Source of the DNA: Pseudomonas sp. P8_229
GTDB lineage: Bacteria; Pseudomonadota; Gammaproteobacteria; Pseudomonadales; Pseudomonadaceae
DNA: 64,000 nt
Reading direction: 5' to 3'
NCBI RefSeq assembly: GCF_034008635.1
Contig: NZ_CP125378.1
Location: 1,540,001 to 1,604,000 of the forward strand
Made by a program: the position numbers and the translations under genes. Shown piece by piece: positions 3,156 through 58,233 of this stretch (within the stretch, counting starts at the first letter, position 1; the number at the start of each line of letters is the position of its first letter). The notes under the pieces are model-generated. The model searched no databases. It worked only from the letters and a program-made list of their open reading frames with translations, and was not told where the DNA came from.

Positions 3156-4085
3156 ATGACGTCATTCGATCGTTTCCAAGCCCCGCCCGATGCCGACATG
3201 GAGAAACAGCGCGCAGAACTGGCGGCGATCATCCGCCGCAACACCACGGACGATGGCAGTTACCAGACCGCCATCGGCTCGCTGTTCATGTCGCGTCACA
3301 CCCAGTCCCATGACTTTGCCCCGGTGCTGGCGCAACCGGCGCTGTGCATCATGGCTCAGGGGCGTAAAGAGGTGCGGCTGGCGGATGAGTACTTCAATTA
3401 CGACCCGTTGAACTACCTGGTGGTGTCGGTTTCGATGCCGCTCAGCGGCCGGGTGGTGAATGTCTCGCCAGAGGACCCTATCCTCGCCGTGCGCCTGGAC
3501 ATCGATCCGACCGAAATCACTGCGCTGATCGCCGACGCCGGCCCCATGGGCGTGCCGACCCGGCCGACCGGGCGTGGTCTGTATGTCGAGCAGATCGACA
3601 GCGCAATGCTCGACGCGGTGCTGCGTCTGGCGCGATTGCTCGATGCGCCGAAAGACATCGCCATGCTCGCGCCGCTGATCCGTCGGGAGATTCTCTATCG
3701 CCTGCTGCGCAGTCCGCAGGGCCATCGTTTGTATGAGATCGCGATTGCCAACAGCCAGAGCCACCGCATCAGCCAGGCGATCAAATGGCTCAACGGCAAC
3801 TTCGAGCAACCGCTGCGTATCGATGATCTGGCCAAGGAAGTGAACCTCAGCGTCTCGACCCTGCATCACCGCTTCAAGGCAATGACGGCGATGAGCCCGC
3901 TGCAATATCAGAAGCAGTTGCGCCTGCAAGAGGCGCGGCGCCTGATGCTGACCGAGGGGCTGGAAGCGTCGGCGGCGGGGTATCGGGTGGGGTATGAAAG
4001 CCCCTCGCAGTTCAGCCGCGAGTACAGCCGCTTGTTTGGCGCACCGCCGTTGCGGGATCTGGCGCGGTTGCGGCTGTCGGTCTGA
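3156..4085 (+). CDS. AraC-family transcriptional regulator
   Basis: A 309-residue regulator. Residues about 1-190 form the AraC N-terminal type domain (AraC_N, PF06719-like). Residues about 205-305 form the double helix-turn-helix, with LRIDDLAKEVNLSVSTLHHRFK as helix-turn-helix 1 and AAGYRVGYESPSQFSREYSRLFG as the conserved second half. AGG is about 9 nt before the ATG at 3156; the longer upstream extension of the frame reads through non-coding DNA. It is divergent from the ABM monooxygenase gene, a common layout for a regulator and its target. The effector is unknown. Confidence 0.85.
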   Translation: MTSFDRFQAPPDADMEKQRAELAAIIRRNTTDDGSYQTAIGSLFMSRHTQSHDFAPVLAQPALCIMAQGRKEVRLADEYFNYDPLNYLVVSVSMPLSGRVVNVSPEDPILAVRLDIDPTEITALIADAGPMGVPTRPTGRGLYVEQIDSAMLDAVLRLARLLDAPKDIAMLAPLIRREILYRLLRSPQGHRLYEIAIANSQSHRISQAIKWLNGNFEQPLRIDDLAKEVNLSVSTLHHRFKAMTAMSPLQYQKQLRLQEARRLMLTEGLEASAAGYRVGYESPSQFSREYSRLFGAPPLRDLARLRLSV

Positions 4086-4113
4086 TCCAGAATTTTCGCT
4101 ATCACAACTGACG

Positions 4114-4208
4114 CCTTCGCGGGCAAGCCCGCTCCCACAGGGTTTTGTGTTGAACACAAGATTGGGGGACAACACCTATCACTGTGGGAGCGGGCTTGCC
4201 CGCGAAGG
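4114..4208. repeat. REPIN, 'cgcgggcaagcccgctcccacag' type
   Basis: Inverted arms starting CCTTCGCGGGCAAGCCCGCT and ending AGCGGGCTTGCCCGCGAAGG flank a centre of about 35 bp. It sits between the convergent AraC gene and the ABC transporter ATPase gene. Confidence 0.9.
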
Positions 4209-4236
4209 GGCCAGCAGGGCCAACATCAAATCCGGA

Positions 4237-5292
4237 TCAAGCCCCCAACACCCGACACGCCTCCACCGGCAACGTCACCGACACCGGATGCCCGACTCCC
4301 AACCCAATCCCCTGACACGGCGTGCTCAACGCCGTGAACGTCACCCCGGAACATTCCACCGTGGTCTCGATGGTCGCGCCGATGTCGCGCACGAACGTCA
4401 CCTTGCCCAGCAAGCGATTGCCCGCCGTCGCCTGTGGCGCAGACAGTTGCAGGTCTTCCGGGCGAATCAGCATCTTCACCTTCTGCCCCACCACGATGCT
4501 GCTGCAGATCGGCACTTGCAGCGCGTCACCACCCGGCAGGCTGACCTTGCCATCACCGAGCGCCGTGGCCGGGAAAATGTTGCCCGAGCCGATGAAGTCG
4601 GCGACGAACTCGTTGGCCGGATGCCGGTAGATCTCGATCGGCGTGCCCACCTGCTGCACCTTGTGCTCCCCCAACACCACCACGATGTCGGCCATGGTCA
4701 TGGCTTCGCGCTGGTCGTGGGTGACCATGATCGTGGTGATGTTCAGGCGCTGTTGCAGTTGGCGGATTTCCACCTGCATCGACTCACGCAGCTTGGCATC
4801 CAGCGCCGACAACGGTTCGTCGAGCAGGAGGATTTTCGGCCGTGAGGCGATGGCCCGGGCAATCGCCACCCGTTGCCGTTGCCCACCGGAAAGCTTCGCC
4901 ACAGGACGGTCGATCATCGCTTGCAGCTGGATCAATTCCAACAGTTCCACCACCCGCGCCTGCTGCTCGGCTTTGCTCACGCCGCGCAGTTTCAGCGGAT
5001 AGGCAATGTTCTCGCCGACGGTCATGTGCGGGAACAGCGCCAGCGACTGGAACACCATGCCGAAGTTGCGCAGGTGCGCCGGGGTATGTCCGATGTTTTC
5101 GCCATCCAGGCGAATCTCGCCGCCGGTGAGGGTTTCCAGCCCGGCGATCATCCGCAGCAAGGTGGTTTTGCCGCAGCCCGACGGGCCGAGAAAACACACC
5201 AGTTTGCCTTCGGGCAAATGCAGGTTGACGTCTTGTACCGCGCAAGCCGAGCCGTAGAATTTCTCGACGTTTTCCAGAATCAGACCAGTCAT
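4237..5292 (-). CDS. ABC transporter ATP-binding protein, spermidine/putrescine (PotA-like) type
   Basis: A 351-residue ATPase with Walker A GPSGCGKTT near residue 38, Q-loop VFQSLALFPHMT, signature LSGGQRQRV, Walker B ILLLDEPLSALD and switch His in VTHDQ. A C-terminal TOBE-like region runs from about residue 245. This is the layout of the CUT1/POT-type importers that take up polyamines, amino compounds or sugars. The ATG at 5292 has GAGGT 5 nt upstream. It is the last gene of a four-gene transporter set (binding protein 7249-8352, permeases 6151-7059 and 5306-6154) and is separated from the previous permease by 13 bp. The substrate is inferred from context to be an amino or guanidino compound. 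Confidence 0.9.
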   Translation of the reverse strand: MTGLILENVEKFYGSACAVQDVNLHLPEGKLVCFLGPSGCGKTTLLRMIAGLETLTGGEIRLDGENIGHTPAHLRNFGMVFQSLALFPHMTVGENIAYPLKLRGVSKAEQQARVVELLELIQLQAMIDRPVAKLSGGQRQRVAIARAIASRPKILLLDEPLSALDAKLRESMQVEIRQLQQRLNITTIMVTHDQREAMTMADIVVVLGEHKVQQVGTPIEIYRHPANEFVADFIGSGNIFPATALGDGKVSLPGGDALQVPICSSIVVGQKVKMLIRPEDLQLSAPQATAGNRLLGKVTFVRDIGATIETTVECSGVTFTALSTPCQGIGLGVGHPVSVTLPVEACRVLGA

Positions 5293-53661: not shown

Positions 53662-54231
53662 ATGACCGAACTTGCGCTTACGCTGATCAGTGCCGCCCTG
53701 CTCAACAACTTCGTGTTGCACTGGCCGCTGGGCGTCGATCCGTTGTTGGCCGGCAGCCGCCGCCAGGTGCATGCGTTGGGGCTGGCGACATCGTGCCTGA
53801 TGCTGGTGACGGGCGTTACCGGTCACGCGATCTGGCATTGGCTGCTGGTGCCGTTGCAACTGCAGGCACTGCACCTGTTTGTGTTCCTGCCGCTCAGCGT
53901 GTTGCTGATCGCGCCGATGCTGAAACTGCTGGCGCGCTGGCTGCCTGACTGGCCCTTCGACGGACTGTGGCCGCTGTTGCTGGGCAATGCCGGCGTGCTG
54001 GGCCTGGCCTTGATCAATGCGCAAAATGATCGAGGCTTGTTGCAGGCAACGGCGCTGAGCATCGGCGCCGGGCTGGGTTTCTGGCTGGTGCTGAGCCTGT
54101 TCCGCGATTTGCGTGAGCGCACGGCCGACAACGACATTCCCCTGCCCTTTCGCGGCCTGCCGATCGATCTGATCGGCGCCGGACTGATCGCAGTGATTTT
54201 TCTCGGATTCAGTGGACTGATCAAAACATGA
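53662..54231 (+). CDS. rnfA: RnfA-like inner-membrane subunit lacking cluster cysteines
   Basis: A 189-residue membrane protein with about six segments, aligned along its whole length with RnfA/RsxA (for example [36 protein letters not shown]). In usual RnfA one Cys in 'LGLCP' and one in 'TTNCAVLG' help hold the intramembrane [2Fe-2S] cluster. Here these positions read LGVDP (Asp26) and GNAGVLG (Ala), so both ligands are gone. The stop overlaps the rnfB start (ATGA). It belongs to a coupled rnfA-B-D-G-E-nth operon with no rnfC. The membrane electron path is therefore not the standard one. Confidence 0.85.
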
Positions 54232-55448
54232 GTCTGATTCAACTCATCGATGCCCTCCTGCCGCAGACCCAATGCGGCAAATGCGGTCACCCCGGCTGCA
54301 AGCCCTATGCGCAAGGCATCGTCGACGGCGAACCGATCAACAAATGCCCACCGGGCGGCGACGAAACCATTGCCGCCCTGGCTGAGCTGTTGAATGTGCC
54401 GGTGCTGGAGCTGGACATCAGCCGGGGTTCGGCACCGCCACAAGTAGCCTACATCCGCGAAGCCGAGTGCATCGGCTGCACCAAGTGCATTCAGGCCTGC
54501 CCGATCGATGCCATCGTCGGCGCCGCGAAACTGATGCACACCGTGCTGATCGACGAATGTACCGGTTGCGACCTGTGCGTGGCGCCCTGCCCGGTCGATT
54601 GCATCGAGATGCATCCGCTGCCGCTCGGCACCTTGCCGGTGGTCGGCGGTCTGGCGTCCAGCCTGGAAGAGCAACGCGCGCGCACCGCCAAACGTGACCA
54701 TGCTCGCCAGCGCTTCGAACGACGCAACGCCCGCCTGCAACGCGAAGAACAACAGAAACAGGCTGAGCGCGAAGCCCGGGCGCAACGTGCAGCGCAACCG
54801 GCTGTGGCAACCCTCGATCCGGTACAGGCGGCCCTGGAACGCGTGCGCGCGCAGAAAGCCGCGACCGCCGACGCGGCGCTGAAAAAAGCCAGGATTGATG
54901 TCGCCATGAGCCGCGCGCAGTTGCACAAATCGCTGAAAGCCTTCGGCCATCCACCGACGTTCGAACAGCAGTCGCAACTGATTGTATTGCAACAGCAGTT
55001 CGAAGCTGCCGAACAGGCGTTGGCAAAACTCGAAAGCAGCGCCCCCAGCGCACCAGCAACTGCGACCCCGGCTCCGGCTCCGGCGAAAGACGCGGACCTG
55101 AAACGAGCAAAAATCCAGCTGGCCATGCGCCGCGCCGAACTGAAAAAGGCCCAGACCGCCGAGGCGCCGCCGGAGCAGATCGCCACGCTGGAACAGGCCT
55201 TGCGTGACGCCGAGCAGGCGCTTCACGCTGCCGAAGCCGCCAGTGAGCAGCCGGCACCTGACCTCATGCGCGTGGAAAAACGTCCGATCGACAGCCAACT
55301 GCGCCAGTTGAAAACCGAACTGGCCTACGCCCGCGCCGACCTGAGCAAACTCGAACGCCGCGCCGACACACCGAGCGAAGTCCTCGACAAGGCCCGCGCC
55401 CGTCTGCACGACGCCGAGCGTCAGGTACACGACCATGTCGCCCCGTGA
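54228..55448 (+). CDS. rnfB: RnfB-like ferredoxin subunit with no membrane anchor and an RnfC-like tail
   Basis: A 406-residue protein, about twice the usual RnfB. Residues 1-45 hold the RnfB Fe-S domain (Cys16, 19, 24, 40); 75-125 hold two 4Fe-4S ferredoxin motifs (Cys81/84/87/91 and 111/114/117/121). The usual N-terminal membrane helix is missing: the protein begins [20 protein letters not shown]. Residues about 150-406 are charged, Ala-rich helical repeats ([54 protein letters not shown]), like the C-terminal tail of RnfC proteins. I infer a fusion left by loss of the RnfC catalytic part. Its start overlaps rnfA by 4 bp and its end overlaps rnfD by 14 bp. Confidence 0.86.
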
Positions 55449-56418
55449 CGCACCGGATGATCGCCTGCAACAGGCGATGAAACAGGTGCTGCTCGCCACG
55501 CTGCCGGGGCTGCTGGCGTTGTTCTGGCTGTACGGCTGGGGCGTGTTGATCAATCTGCTTCTGGCGGCGAGCACCGCGTTACTCGTCGAGGCAGGCGTCA
55601 CCCGCCTGCGCCGACAGCCGCTGCAACCGACGCTGAGCGACGGCAGCGCACTGGTCAGCGCCACCCTGTTGGCGGCGGCCCTGCCGCCTTATTGCCCGTG
55701 GTGGTTGACCGTTATCGCGATCGCTTCGGGCCTGCTGTTCGGCAAACACCTGTACGGTGGCATCGGCAAGAATCCGTTCAATCCGGCCATGCTCGGCTTT
55801 GCGCTGGTGATGGTGCTGTTCCCGCAACCGATGACGCACTGGCCCGCGCACGGCATGAATCTGCTGGCAGCGTTTGAACAGGTTTTCAACCCGGGTCAGG
55901 CGCCGGACGCCTGGGTCCAGGCCACGGCGCTGGACAGCCTGCGCATCAACAAAAGCCTGACGATGGATGAGCTGTTCGCCGCCAGCCCGGCGTTCGGGCA
56001 TTTCGGCGGACGCGGCGTTGAGTGGGTCAATCTGGCGTTTCTCGCCGGGGGGCTGTTGCTGTTGCAACGCCGGGTGATTGGCTGGCAAGCACCCGTCGGC
56101 ATGTTGGTCAGCCTGTTTGTCGTCAGCCTGCTCTTTTGGAACGGCTCGGGTTCCGACTCCCATGGCTCGCCGCTGTTTCATCTGCTGAGTGGAGCGACCA
56201 TGCTCGGCGCGTTCTTCATCATTACCGAACCGGTGTCCGGCGCAAAAAGCCCGTTGGCCCGACTGCTGTTCGGCGTCGGTGTCGGCTTGCTGACCTACCT
56301 GATCCGCACATGGGGCGGCTACCCGGACGGCGTTGCGTTTGCCGTGTTGCTGATGAATCTCTGTGTGCCGGCGCTGGAACGCTTCGCCGCTGCCCGCCAG
56401 GCACGGGTGACCCCATGA
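55435..56418 (+). CDS. rnfD: RnfD-like membrane subunit
   Basis: A 327-residue membrane protein of the NqrB/RnfD family. The conserved [20 protein letters not shown] is present, and the site of covalent FMN is probably Thr164 in [24 protein letters not shown] near the C-terminus is also conserved. It should carry electrons across the membrane. Its start overlaps the end of rnfB by 14 bp, where rnfC would lie in other genomes; there is no room for one. The rnfG start overlaps its stop. Confidence 0.88.
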
Positions 56419-57020
56419 ACCGCGCGACCTCGGTCATCACGCTGGCGCTGATAGCCGCTGCCGGTCTCGGCCTGGTCTATGGGGTGCAACGCGCCAGTGC
56501 GCCGCAGATTGCCATCGAGCAACACCTGCTCGACAGTCGCAAACTGCTGGATGTACTCACCGCCGACGCTTACGACAATCAGCCCCTGGAGCAACCGCTG
56601 GCGTTGGTTGACACGACGTTGCGCCGCAGCACGCTGCTGGGTGCTTACCGCGCCAGCAAAGCCGGGCAACCGGTGGCGGTGTTGTTGCGTACGCAGACCG
56701 AGGGGTATGCCGGCGCTATCGAATTGCTGATCGCCATTGATACCAATGGCAGACTGCTGGGCGTTAAAACCCTGCGGCAAAACGAAACGCCGGCGCTCGG
56801 CGGGCACGTCGGCGACTGGCCGAACAACTGGCTGGCAGGTTTTTCCGGAAAATCTGGCAGTGCACCCGATGATGCGGGCTGGGCATTGAAAAAGGATCAG
56901 GGACAGTTCGACCAGTTGGCGGGCGCAACCATCACTTCCCGTGCCACCGTCGATGCCATCCATGACGCCCTGCGCTACTTTGATGAGCACCGGTCAACCT
57001 TGCTGGGGATCGCACCATGA
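56415..57020 (+). CDS. rnfG: RnfG-like FMN-binding subunit
   Basis: A 201-residue protein with one N-terminal membrane segment (about 7-23) and a periplasmic FMN-binding domain. Segments TEGYAGAIELLIAIDTNGRLLGVKTLRQNETPALG and DQLAGATITSRATVDAI follow the RnfG pattern, and Thr172 in AGATITS is the expected covalent FMN site. Its start overlaps the rnfD stop and its stop overlaps rnfE, both by ATGA. It is the part of the complex that looks most normal. Confidence 0.88.
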   Translation: MNRATSVITLALIAAAGLGLVYGVQRASAPQIAIEQHLLDSRKLLDVLTADAYDNQPLEQPLALVDTTLRRSTLLGAYRASKAGQPVAVLLRTQTEGYAGAIELLIAIDTNGRLLGVKTLRQNETPALGGHVGDWPNNWLAGFSGKSGSAPDDAGWALKKDQGQFDQLAGATITSRATVDAIHDALRYFDEHRSTLLGIAP

Positions 57021-57598
57021 AGCGGCCGACGAATCCGGGCAACGCCTTGATGCTGGCGCTGTTGTTGGGCACCAGCACCACACTGGCCGGCGCGCTGGGG
57101 ATGCTGTTGATGTCGAGCGTTGTCGTGACGATTTACGCGGTGTGTATCGCTCCACTGCGTTCACGACTGCATGACAGCGCCGCGTTGCTGGCCAGCTTGC
57201 TGCTGGCCGCCACCCTGACCAGTTGCGCGAATATCCTCGCGCAGCGCTGGGCGTTGCAGTGGCACCAGACACTCGGCCTCTATGCCGGGCTGATCGCCTT
57301 GCAGTGCGTGGTGCTGGAATACAATGGATTCTTTCGTCAGGCGCTAACCGAACGCCTGAAGTTTTTTGGCCTGTCGAGTGGACTGCTACTGATGCTGGCG
57401 GTTTTGCGTGAGCTGTTCGGTCAGGGCCATCTCGGTCGTGGTCTGTCAGAGCACTGGCAAGGTCTGATCCTGTTCAACGAAGGGCTGCACCTGGTCACAC
57501 TGGTTCCCGGCGCGCTCATATTACTGGGACTGCTGCTGGCTGCCCGCCAGGCATGGACTCGCTCGAACGCTCTCTCCAAGGAAACACATCACCCATGA
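57017..57598 (+). CDS. rnfE: RnfE-like membrane subunit, mostly lacking cluster cysteines
   Basis: A 193-residue membrane protein aligned with RnfE/RsxE, but diverged. The N-terminal 'LGLCPLLA' cysteine position reads LMLALLLG (Ala14), while the second ligand is kept as Cys97 in LIALQCVVLEY. The conserved LREIIGNG segment appears as LRELFGQG. With RnfA lacking both its cysteines, only one of the four ligands of the usual [2Fe-2S] cluster remains in the pair. The stop overlaps the nth start (ATGA). Confidence 0.8.
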   Translation: MKRPTNPGNALMLALLLGTSTTLAGALGMLLMSSVVVTIYAVCIAPLRSRLHDSAALLASLLLAATLTSCANILAQRWALQWHQTLGLYAGLIALQCVVLEYNGFFRQALTERLKFFGLSSGLLLMLAVLRELFGQGHLGRGLSEHWQGLILFNEGLHLVTLVPGALILLGLLLAARQAWTRSNALSKETHHP

Positions 57599-58233
57599 AT
57601 GCCGCAAAACGCCTTGAGATTTTTCGTCGACTGCATGAAGACAATCCCGAGCCGAAAACCGAACTGGCCTACTCCTCGCCCTTCGAATTGCTGATAGCGG
57701 TGATTCTGTCGGCGCAGTCGACTGACGTCGGCGTCAACAAGGCCACGGCCAAACTGTTCCCGGTTGCCAATACCCCGGCAGCGATCCATGCGCTGGGCGT
57801 CGAAGGGCTGTCCGAATACATCAAGACCATCGGCCTCTACAACAGCAAAGCCAAGAACGTGATCGAGACCTGCCGCATGCTGGTCGAGTTGCACAATGGT
57901 GAGATCCCGCAAACCCGTGAAGAGCTGGAAGCCCTGCCCGGTGTGGGCCGCAAGACCGCCAACGTGGTGCTCAACACCGCGTTTCGCCAGTTGACCATGG
58001 CGGTCGACACGCACATTTTTCGCGTGAGCAACCGCACCGGCATCGCCTCAGGTAAAAATGTGCTCGAGGTGGAAAAGAAGTTGATGAAGTTTGTTCCTAA
58101 AGACTACCTGCTGGATTCTCACCACTGGTTGATTCTGCACGGTCGCTACGTGTGCCTCGCCCGCAAGCCGCGCTGTGGCAGCTGTCGGATCGAAGATTTG
58201 TGTGAGTACAAACACAAAACCTCGGACGATTGA
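57595..58233 (+). CDS. nth: Endonuclease III
   Basis: A 212-residue DNA glycosylase / AP lyase that removes oxidised pyrimidines. The helix-hairpin-helix is LPGVGRKTANVVL with the catalytic Lys, the catalytic Asp is in VDTHIFRV, and the 4Fe-4S loop at the C-terminus has the spacing C-x6-C-x2-C-x5-C (CLARKPRCGSCRIEDLC). The start at 57595 overlaps the rnfE stop, which links it to the rnf operon, a common arrangement in Gammaproteobacteria. Confidence 0.97.
   Translation: MNAAKRLEIFRRLHEDNPEPKTELAYSSPFELLIAVILSAQSTDVGVNKATAKLFPVANTPAAIHALGVEGLSEYIKTIGLYNSKAKNVIETCRMLVELHNGEIPQTREELEALPGVGRKTANVVLNTAFRQLTMAVDTHIFRVSNRTGIASGKNVLEVEKKLMKFVPKDYLLDSHHWLILHGRYVCLARKPRCGSCRIEDLCEYKHKTSDD

Follow-up and report, generated by a model that had tools for sequence, protein, structure and literature searches.

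An rnfC-less rnf operon in a large Pseudomonas clade, with a soluble RnfB carrying an RnfC tail and a putative cluster-free flavin module

Introduction

The canonical RnfABCDGE complex is a ferredoxin:NAD+ oxidoreductase, and ApbE is the flavin transferase that attaches flavins to its RnfD and RnfG subunits. Here we analyze the rnf operon of Pseudomonas sp. P8_229, contained in a window of 64 kb (the whole stretch of DNA analyzed, to which coordinates refer unless another locus is named) of a genome (G000) made of one contig of 6,365,050 bases. The closest described systems, the Rnf complexes of A. vinelandii (Rnf1, 8ahx) and C. tetanomorphum (7zc6) and the RsxABCDGE complex of E. coli, share with this operon homologous A, B, D, G, and E subunits encoded in the same order and the flavin sites of RnfD and RnfG. 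The E. coli rsx operon also adjoins nth, as in the window. The Pseudomonas operon differs from these systems by the lack of RnfC, of the membrane helix of RnfB, and of the complete set of [2Fe-2S] ligands, and RseC was not found in the genome.

In Rnf, RnfB passes electrons on to a [2Fe-2S] cluster whose ligands are four cysteines of RnfA and RnfE; from there they reach the flavin mononucleotide (FMN) of RnfG, the FMN and riboflavin of RnfD, and finally RnfC (PMC12174285). The Na+-NQR complex has a related membrane core and all four cluster cysteines (PMC12174285), but its NADH enters by NqrF and its acceptor is a quinone; its NqrM is a possible parallel to RseC. Reduced systems have also been described. 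Meheust et al. (2021) reported NQR/RNF-like flavinylated systems in which one transmembrane path is kept, with a proposed one-way transfer of electrons to an extracytosolic FMN domain (PMC8238504). The window operon, judged by its broken cluster ligands and intact RnfD and RnfG sites, may keep only one of the two paths. In those systems, found primarily in Actinobacteria and the Candidate Phyla Radiation, the RnfD/NqrB domain is fused to the NAD-binding domain of NqrF, whereas in the window RnfD is unfused and RnfA, RnfE, and RnfG remain. Under the rule of that study (RnfB in the cluster; PMC8238504), the window operon would presumably be classed as an ordinary RNF.

A large Pseudomonas clade lacks rnfC

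The genes rnfA, rnfB, rnfD, rnfG, rnfE, and nth follow each other on the forward strand (53662-58233), with successive overlaps of 4, 14, 4, 4, and 4 bases, an ATG start codon in all six, and no internal stops. This order and these overlaps had been described in a previous analysis made by a model from the letters and open reading frames of the window (here, the sequence-only reading), and the coordinates were exact. The E. coli order rsxABCDGE-nth is that of the window plus rnfC, so rnfC is the sole gene missing. The sequence-only reading had argued from the overlaps that no rnfC could be hidden or lost to assembly, in agreement with our search of the whole genome: none was found over the model cut-off (246 bits), the only matches being weak ones of 57 bits (a 509-aa frame) and 26 bits. 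An RnfC with an NADH/FMN site was thus absent from both operon and genome in the profile search of this one contig.

The remaining subunits could be assigned. RnfD (55435..56418, 327 aa), the membrane flavoprotein subunit, has PF03116 as its sole domain and scored 361.7 bits with TIGR01946 (cut-off 207.05), the FMN-binding subunit RnfG (56415..57020, 201 aa) 150.8 bits with TIGR01947 (cut-off 102), and RnfB 210.5 bits with TIGR01944 (cut-off 68.7). RnfA (53662..54231, 189 aa), an Rnf-Nqr membrane subunit (PF02508), and RnfE (57017..57598, 193 aa), whose N terminus is shortened, scored under the cut-offs of TIGR01943 (110.6 versus 229.3 bits) and TIGR01948 (66.2 versus 213.4 bits), respectively, but their homology is clear by alignment, in the case of RnfA with solved RnfA. 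The downstream neighbor nth (57595..58233) encodes endonuclease III (TIGR01083, 284.5 bits).

We surveyed 298 Pseudomonas genomes, which are species representatives and not independent samples. Canonical RnfC, defined as a match over 600 bits, was found in 37 of them (6 genomes with only other RnfC types were counted as rnfC-less), RnfB in 260, and RnfD in 216 at E values up to 0.001 (211 over the cut-off; a few matches near 1e-55 may be NqrB). Among 80 named Pseudomonas loci, the best 80 of 585 relatives, 49 carried rnfABDGE, including strains of P. fluorescens, P. protegens, P. chlororaphis, P. alkylphenolica, and P. resinovorans, and 31 carried rnfB alone, including another P. fluorescens strain. 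Among the named matches listed, the RnfB of Pseudomonas sp. RIT288 was the most similar (94%), followed by that of P. parakoreensis (93%), which places the strain in their vicinity within Pseudomonas. All 49 fetched loci holding both metG and nth had the arrangement metG-rnf-nth on one strand, with the sets ABCDGE, ABDGE, ADGE, or B. In a tree of 36 RnfD sequences, the 30 from rnfC-less loci formed one clade, with a support of 99 in the Shimodaira-Hasegawa-like approximate likelihood ratio test (SH-aLRT). On the species tree of 51 loci, the minimum number of changes in presence was 1 for RnfC, 4 for RnfD, and 2 for RnfB. The loss of rnfC is therefore a trait of a large Pseudomonas clade, as the sequence-only reading had proposed for the gene set, and a single-genome oddity is ruled out by the genus survey and the loci of the relatives.

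Two other observations were made on these subunits in the genus. In loci L084 to L088, an rnfC-rnfD pair (3592-7200 in L088) had no match to rnfA, rnfB, rnfG, or rnfE alongside and could be another half-Rnf; RnfC of this type (about 370 to 400 bits) was found in 11 of the 298 genomes, 5 of them without canonical RnfC, and in L088 a divergent frame of 338 aa (3592-4605) overlaps the position where ApbE was matched in genome G057. In G034, G262, and G268, RnfD appeared as two matches with a best score lower than usual, perhaps broken copies.

RnfA and RnfE have lost three of the four cluster ligands

The loss of cysteines in RnfA and RnfE is a larger change, which the sequence-only reading had not noticed. 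We read their positions from alignments to solved chains and compared 79 rnfC-less Pseudomonas sequences with RnfD (77 distinct, two loci being duplicates) with 8 canonical ones. At the site of the first cluster cysteine of RnfA (E. coli RsxA Cys26), the window has Asp26 (53737..53739, forward strand, like all positions below); this residue is Asp in 74 of the 79 rnfC-less sequences and Cys in none, versus Cys in 8/8 canonical ones. At the second site (RsxA Cys114), occupied in the window by Ala110 (53989..53991), 70 of 79 have Ala and again none has Cys. RnfE has lost its first cluster cysteine in every case (0/79), and its Cys97 (57305..57307, aligned with RsxE Cys109), present in 79/79, is the sole cluster cysteine left. 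In total, one of the four ligands is kept in all 79 rnfC-less sequences and all four in the 8 canonical ones. Since three of the four are gone, the RnfA/RnfE path would not work in its known form, which would bar RnfB from supplying the membrane part along that path; the earlier proposal of a soluble RnfB acting in this way is not supported.

A soluble RnfB with a tail homologous to that of RnfC

RnfB (54228..55448, 406 aa) begins right at its Fe-S domain (residues 1 to 126, 54228..54605; PF04060 and PF14697). Its alignment with the RnfB of E. coli and of canonical Pseudomonas revealed that the N-terminal membrane helix of these proteins is absent, as the sequence-only reading had noted. The four N-terminal cluster cysteines were conserved in all 76 RnfB sequences from loci with RnfD. 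The best NCBIfam match, over residues 2 to 269, was the soluble RsxB model NF005415 (PRK06991), yet its score was under the cut-off (245.1 versus 281 bits). The lineage of this model is betaproteobacterial.

The remainder of the protein (residues 127 to 406, 54606..55445) is a tail of 280 residues, 21% of them Ala. A hidden Markov model (HMM) built from the RnfC tails of 27 canonical members of the genus matched the tail of the window RnfB with 197 bits (E = 3.6e-57 with Z set to 100,000) and all 26 fused RnfB tails (median, 90 bits; lowest, 34.5 bits). Of 520 locally shuffled tails, only 5 scored at all (maximum, 5.7 bits), and none of 26 reversed tails, 26 RnfB Fe-S domains, and 6 unfused RnfB proteins was matched. 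These controls rule out a resemblance due to composition only and make the likeness to the RnfC end, reported before from its Ala-rich repeats, one of homology. The E. coli RsxC tail was not matched by this HMM; in blastp without composition correction, the RnfB tail had 26 to 29% identity to it and 36 to 46% to Pseudomonas RnfC tails. Judged by the profile matches and their controls, the tail of RnfB is derived from that of RnfC. This homology suggests that an in-frame deletion probably removed the body of RnfC and left its tail on the Fe-S domain of RnfB, which is the simplest history. The alignment with Pseudomonas RnfC tails extends to the C terminus, and for this reason an import of the fusion together with an RnfB of other gammaproteobacteria is not favored. 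The tree of the RnfB Fe-S domain grouped the rnfC-less Pseudomonas sequences (SH-aLRT, 92); its branches are long, it omitted 9 of 53 sequences (E. coli among them) whose start was missed by the pattern used, and it did not settle whether canonical or other fused RnfB proteins are the nearer kin.

Similar fusions exist outside the genus. In loci L132 to L136, from three gammaproteobacterial families (f95, f137, and f112), RnfB continues into a part of RnfC that comprises its ferredoxin domain and its tail. L132 and L133 resemble the window in that the RnfC body is lost and its C-terminal part is carried by RnfB. In contrast to the window, they keep the ferredoxin domain of RnfC, the membrane helix of RnfB, all four cluster cysteines, and RseC in the genome. 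When proteins were searched with that of L133 as the query, 7,999 candidates scored at E values up to 1e-20, under a length rule that may admit unfused RnfB; the five C-terminal parts inspected all had the RnfC ferredoxin motif, in proteins annotated at their source as RsxB or RnfB. Judging from these fusions, RnfC seems to have shed its NADH part repeatedly while leaving its end on RnfB. A long helix of RnfC touches RnfB in A. vinelandii (PMC12174285), a contact that may explain why this end is retained.

RnfB and the membrane part as separable modules

The presence of RnfB was compared with that of RnfD, used in the genus survey as a proxy for the membrane module (the complete ADGE set was seen in the fetched loci only). 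Among the 261 genomes without canonical RnfC, 154 had both proteins, 69 only RnfB, 25 only RnfD, and 13 neither, revealing no association (odds ratio, 1.16; P = 0.71). On the species tree, RnfB was retained where RnfD was lost in 4 of 4 independent pairs. In the 18 loci fetched with RnfB alone, the protein always kept its tail and had 13 cysteines in its Fe-S part, and three fetched loci had RnfADGE without RnfB. Since each occurs without the other, an obligate complex of RnfB and the membrane part is not supported, and each seems to have a role of its own.

A direct contact between RnfB and RnfD is possible in the species that have both. RnfB might there still be the cytoplasmic donor, the RnfC tail holding its Fe-S domain under RnfD, in the former place of the RnfC ferredoxin domain, from where it would reduce the riboflavin of RnfD directly. 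The shared operon with overlapping genes is consistent with this, as are the L132 and L133 proteins, in which RnfB is joined to just that ferredoxin domain and the tail, and the long RnfC helix of A. vinelandii, which contacts both RnfB and RnfH (PMC12174285). We nevertheless regard such a donor as unlikely, given the lack of association between the two proteins, the three loci with RnfADGE alone, and the tail that persists in lone RnfB in 18 of 18 fetched loci.

The flavin part is conserved

The sites for covalent flavins are kept. In RnfD, Thr164 (55924..55926) is aligned with Thr187 of E. coli RsxD, the FMN-attachment residue, and was Thr in 78 of the 79 rnfC-less sequences and Ser in the other. 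The residue of the SGAT motif of RnfD (E. coli Thr279), distinct from the FMN site, was also Thr or Ser in 79/79. The FMN-attachment position of RnfG, Thr172 (56928..56930, aligned with RsxG Thr174), was Thr in 77 and Ser in 2. The predicted flavin sites of both subunits were thus conserved as Thr or Ser in all 79. The genome encodes one ApbE (C1:863304-864146), and RnfG is its only match to FMN_bind (PF04205). We then searched for ApbE in 80 of the 298 genomes. It was found in all 40 sampled rnfC-less genomes with RnfD (25 with RnfB and 15 without) versus 8 of the 40 without RnfD (P = 7e-15), and the three independent pairs on the species tree all agreed with this link.

The ratio of nonsynonymous to synonymous substitutions (dN/dS), calculated for five pairs with relatives, in some of which dS was above 1, was 0.13 to 0.28 for rnfA, 0.06 to 0.16 for rnfB, 0.07 to 0.16 for rnfD, 0.16 to 0.23 for rnfG (129 codons in one pair), and 0.23 to 0.29 for rnfE, versus 0.01 to 0.03 for nth in the same pairs. 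By these measures, the membrane part looks functional.

These values bear on whether the operon could be a relic, in which the loss of RnfC made the pump useless and the remainder is decaying piecemeal. The repeated changes in the presence of the membrane genes and of rnfB, the divergence and raised dN/dS of RnfE, and the rnfB of two genomes (G207, locus L126; G195, locus L112), which matches its model across a stop codon by sequencing error or as a recent pseudogene, would fit such a decay. It is made improbable by dN/dS ratios far under 1 in every subunit and pair, by the RnfE Cys and FMN-site Thr or Ser that are invariant in the 79 sequences, and by the presence of ApbE in every sampled genome with the module. 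We give very little credence to RnfA/RnfE having become a cluster-free ion channel or transporter in which flavins are merely regulatory: the frequent Asp26 and the invariant Cys97 at the old cluster site would suit it, but RnfE is otherwise poorly conserved. The idea that the missing rnfC is an artefact of assembly or annotation, or that RnfC is encoded elsewhere, is refuted for this genome by its single contig, its overlapping genes, and the rnfC search, and becomes nearly untenable with the same gene set in 49 and rnfB alone in 31 of the best 80 of 585 relatives.

RseC and the membrane cluster

RseC is a partner of the SoxR-reducing Rsx complex of E. coli, with two-hybrid contacts to RsxB and RsxD, and an N-terminal part that is able to assemble an Fe-S cluster (PMC11729352). 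In NQR, the insertion of the [2Fe-2S] cluster seems to require NqrM (PMC12174285). RseC (PF04246) had no match in the genome of Pseudomonas sp. P8_229 at E values up to 0.01. Among 80 of the 298 Pseudomonas genomes, it was found over the cut-off in all 24 canonical and in none of the 56 rnfC-less ones, 8 of which gave weak matches of 18 to 20 bits; its loss within this sample corresponds to one event. We also analyzed 80 other gammaproteobacteria. RseC passed the cut-off in 24 of the 25 with RnfC and RnfD, in none of the 45 with RnfB and no RnfC (nor RnfD, save a weak match in G569), and in 6 of the remaining 10. These ten, considered here with the locus of G514 left out, include two draft genomes of one genus (G390 and G511) that have no RnfC yet keep all four cysteines and RseC, and two of one other genus (G407 and G524) in which His replaces the first RnfA cysteine, the gene set is incomplete in the fetched stretch, and RseC has no match. 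In G432, the RseC match was below the cut-off.

In most of the genomes compared, with two exceptions, RseC presence follows the RnfA/RnfE cysteines rather than RnfC. This pattern is consistent with RseC acting for the membrane cluster and not for RnfC, by analogy with what NqrM seems to do in NQR. Against such a maturase stand G022, whose Rnf1-type operon (L077) has all four cysteines with RseC only below the cut-off, and G393, which has RnfC and RnfD with no RseC match, both counter-examples to RseC as a universal maturase.

A putative one-way flavin conduit

Together, the sequences show the following history. In an ancestor of the Pseudomonas clade, the body of RnfC was lost and its C-terminal tail was joined to the Fe-S domain of RnfB, itself now devoid of its membrane helix. 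RnfA and RnfE lost three of the four [2Fe-2S] cysteines, and RseC was found in none of the sampled genomes of the clade. The remainder forms two separable modules, a soluble Fe-S protein (RnfB with the RnfC tail) and a flavin-only RnfADGE accompanied by ApbE. Without RnfC and a complete set of cluster ligands, this membrane module could pass electrons at most through RnfD and RnfG, presumably from riboflavin to the FMN of RnfD and then to that of RnfG. RnfADGE would thus be a one-way, cluster-free conduit that links a cytoplasmic-face or membrane-borne donor to a periplasmic acceptor, and soluble RnfB would have its own job, possibly as one donor where both modules occur. We hold this scenario as a whole with moderate confidence. 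Since the flavin part is conserved and accompanied by ApbE, the membrane module probably has another function than the known Rnf complex.

Several points weigh against this scenario. The evidence for it is all sequence, and it does not account for the retention of RnfA and RnfE despite the loss of their cluster. The link with ApbE amounts to three independent pairs, too few for a P value under 0.05, and eight of the 40 genomes without RnfD still have ApbE. The fast evolution of RnfE (compared with nth) and the at least 4 changes in RnfD presence among the 51 loci also fit a slow decay.

A bolder proposal is tentative. RnfADGE may represent a novel type of Rnf, a conduit free of [2Fe-2S] and reliant on flavins only, which would need no Rnf-encoded cytoplasmic partner and would carry electrons from quinol or some reductase to a periplasmic acceptor. 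The joint loss of cluster and RseC may point to RseC as the builder of the [2Fe-2S] cluster of RnfA/RnfE where Rnf/Rsx is of the ordinary type, a role that NqrM seems to have for NQR. Of the sequence-only reading, the loss of rnfC, the origin of the tail, the lineage trait, and a membrane part that looks functional were borne out, and the feeding of the latter by a soluble RnfB through the known route was not. Literature on Pseudomonas rnf, RnfB in P. fluorescens, RseC/NqrM, and RnfC loss gave no match by title or opening of the abstract in a search whose coverage mostly excludes subscription journals.

The operon represents a natural dissection of Rnf, in which the NADH module, the cluster ligands, and RseC (by its family model) are gone while the flavin part and ApbE are kept in many Pseudomonas. 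Three questions thereby become directly accessible to experiment: the capabilities of the flavin half on its own, the purpose of the long RnfC tail, and the function of RseC. The operon also calls for caution in annotation, since genomes annotated with RnfB and RnfD, or counted as RNF-bearing because they have RnfB, may lack a ferredoxin:NAD+ pump.

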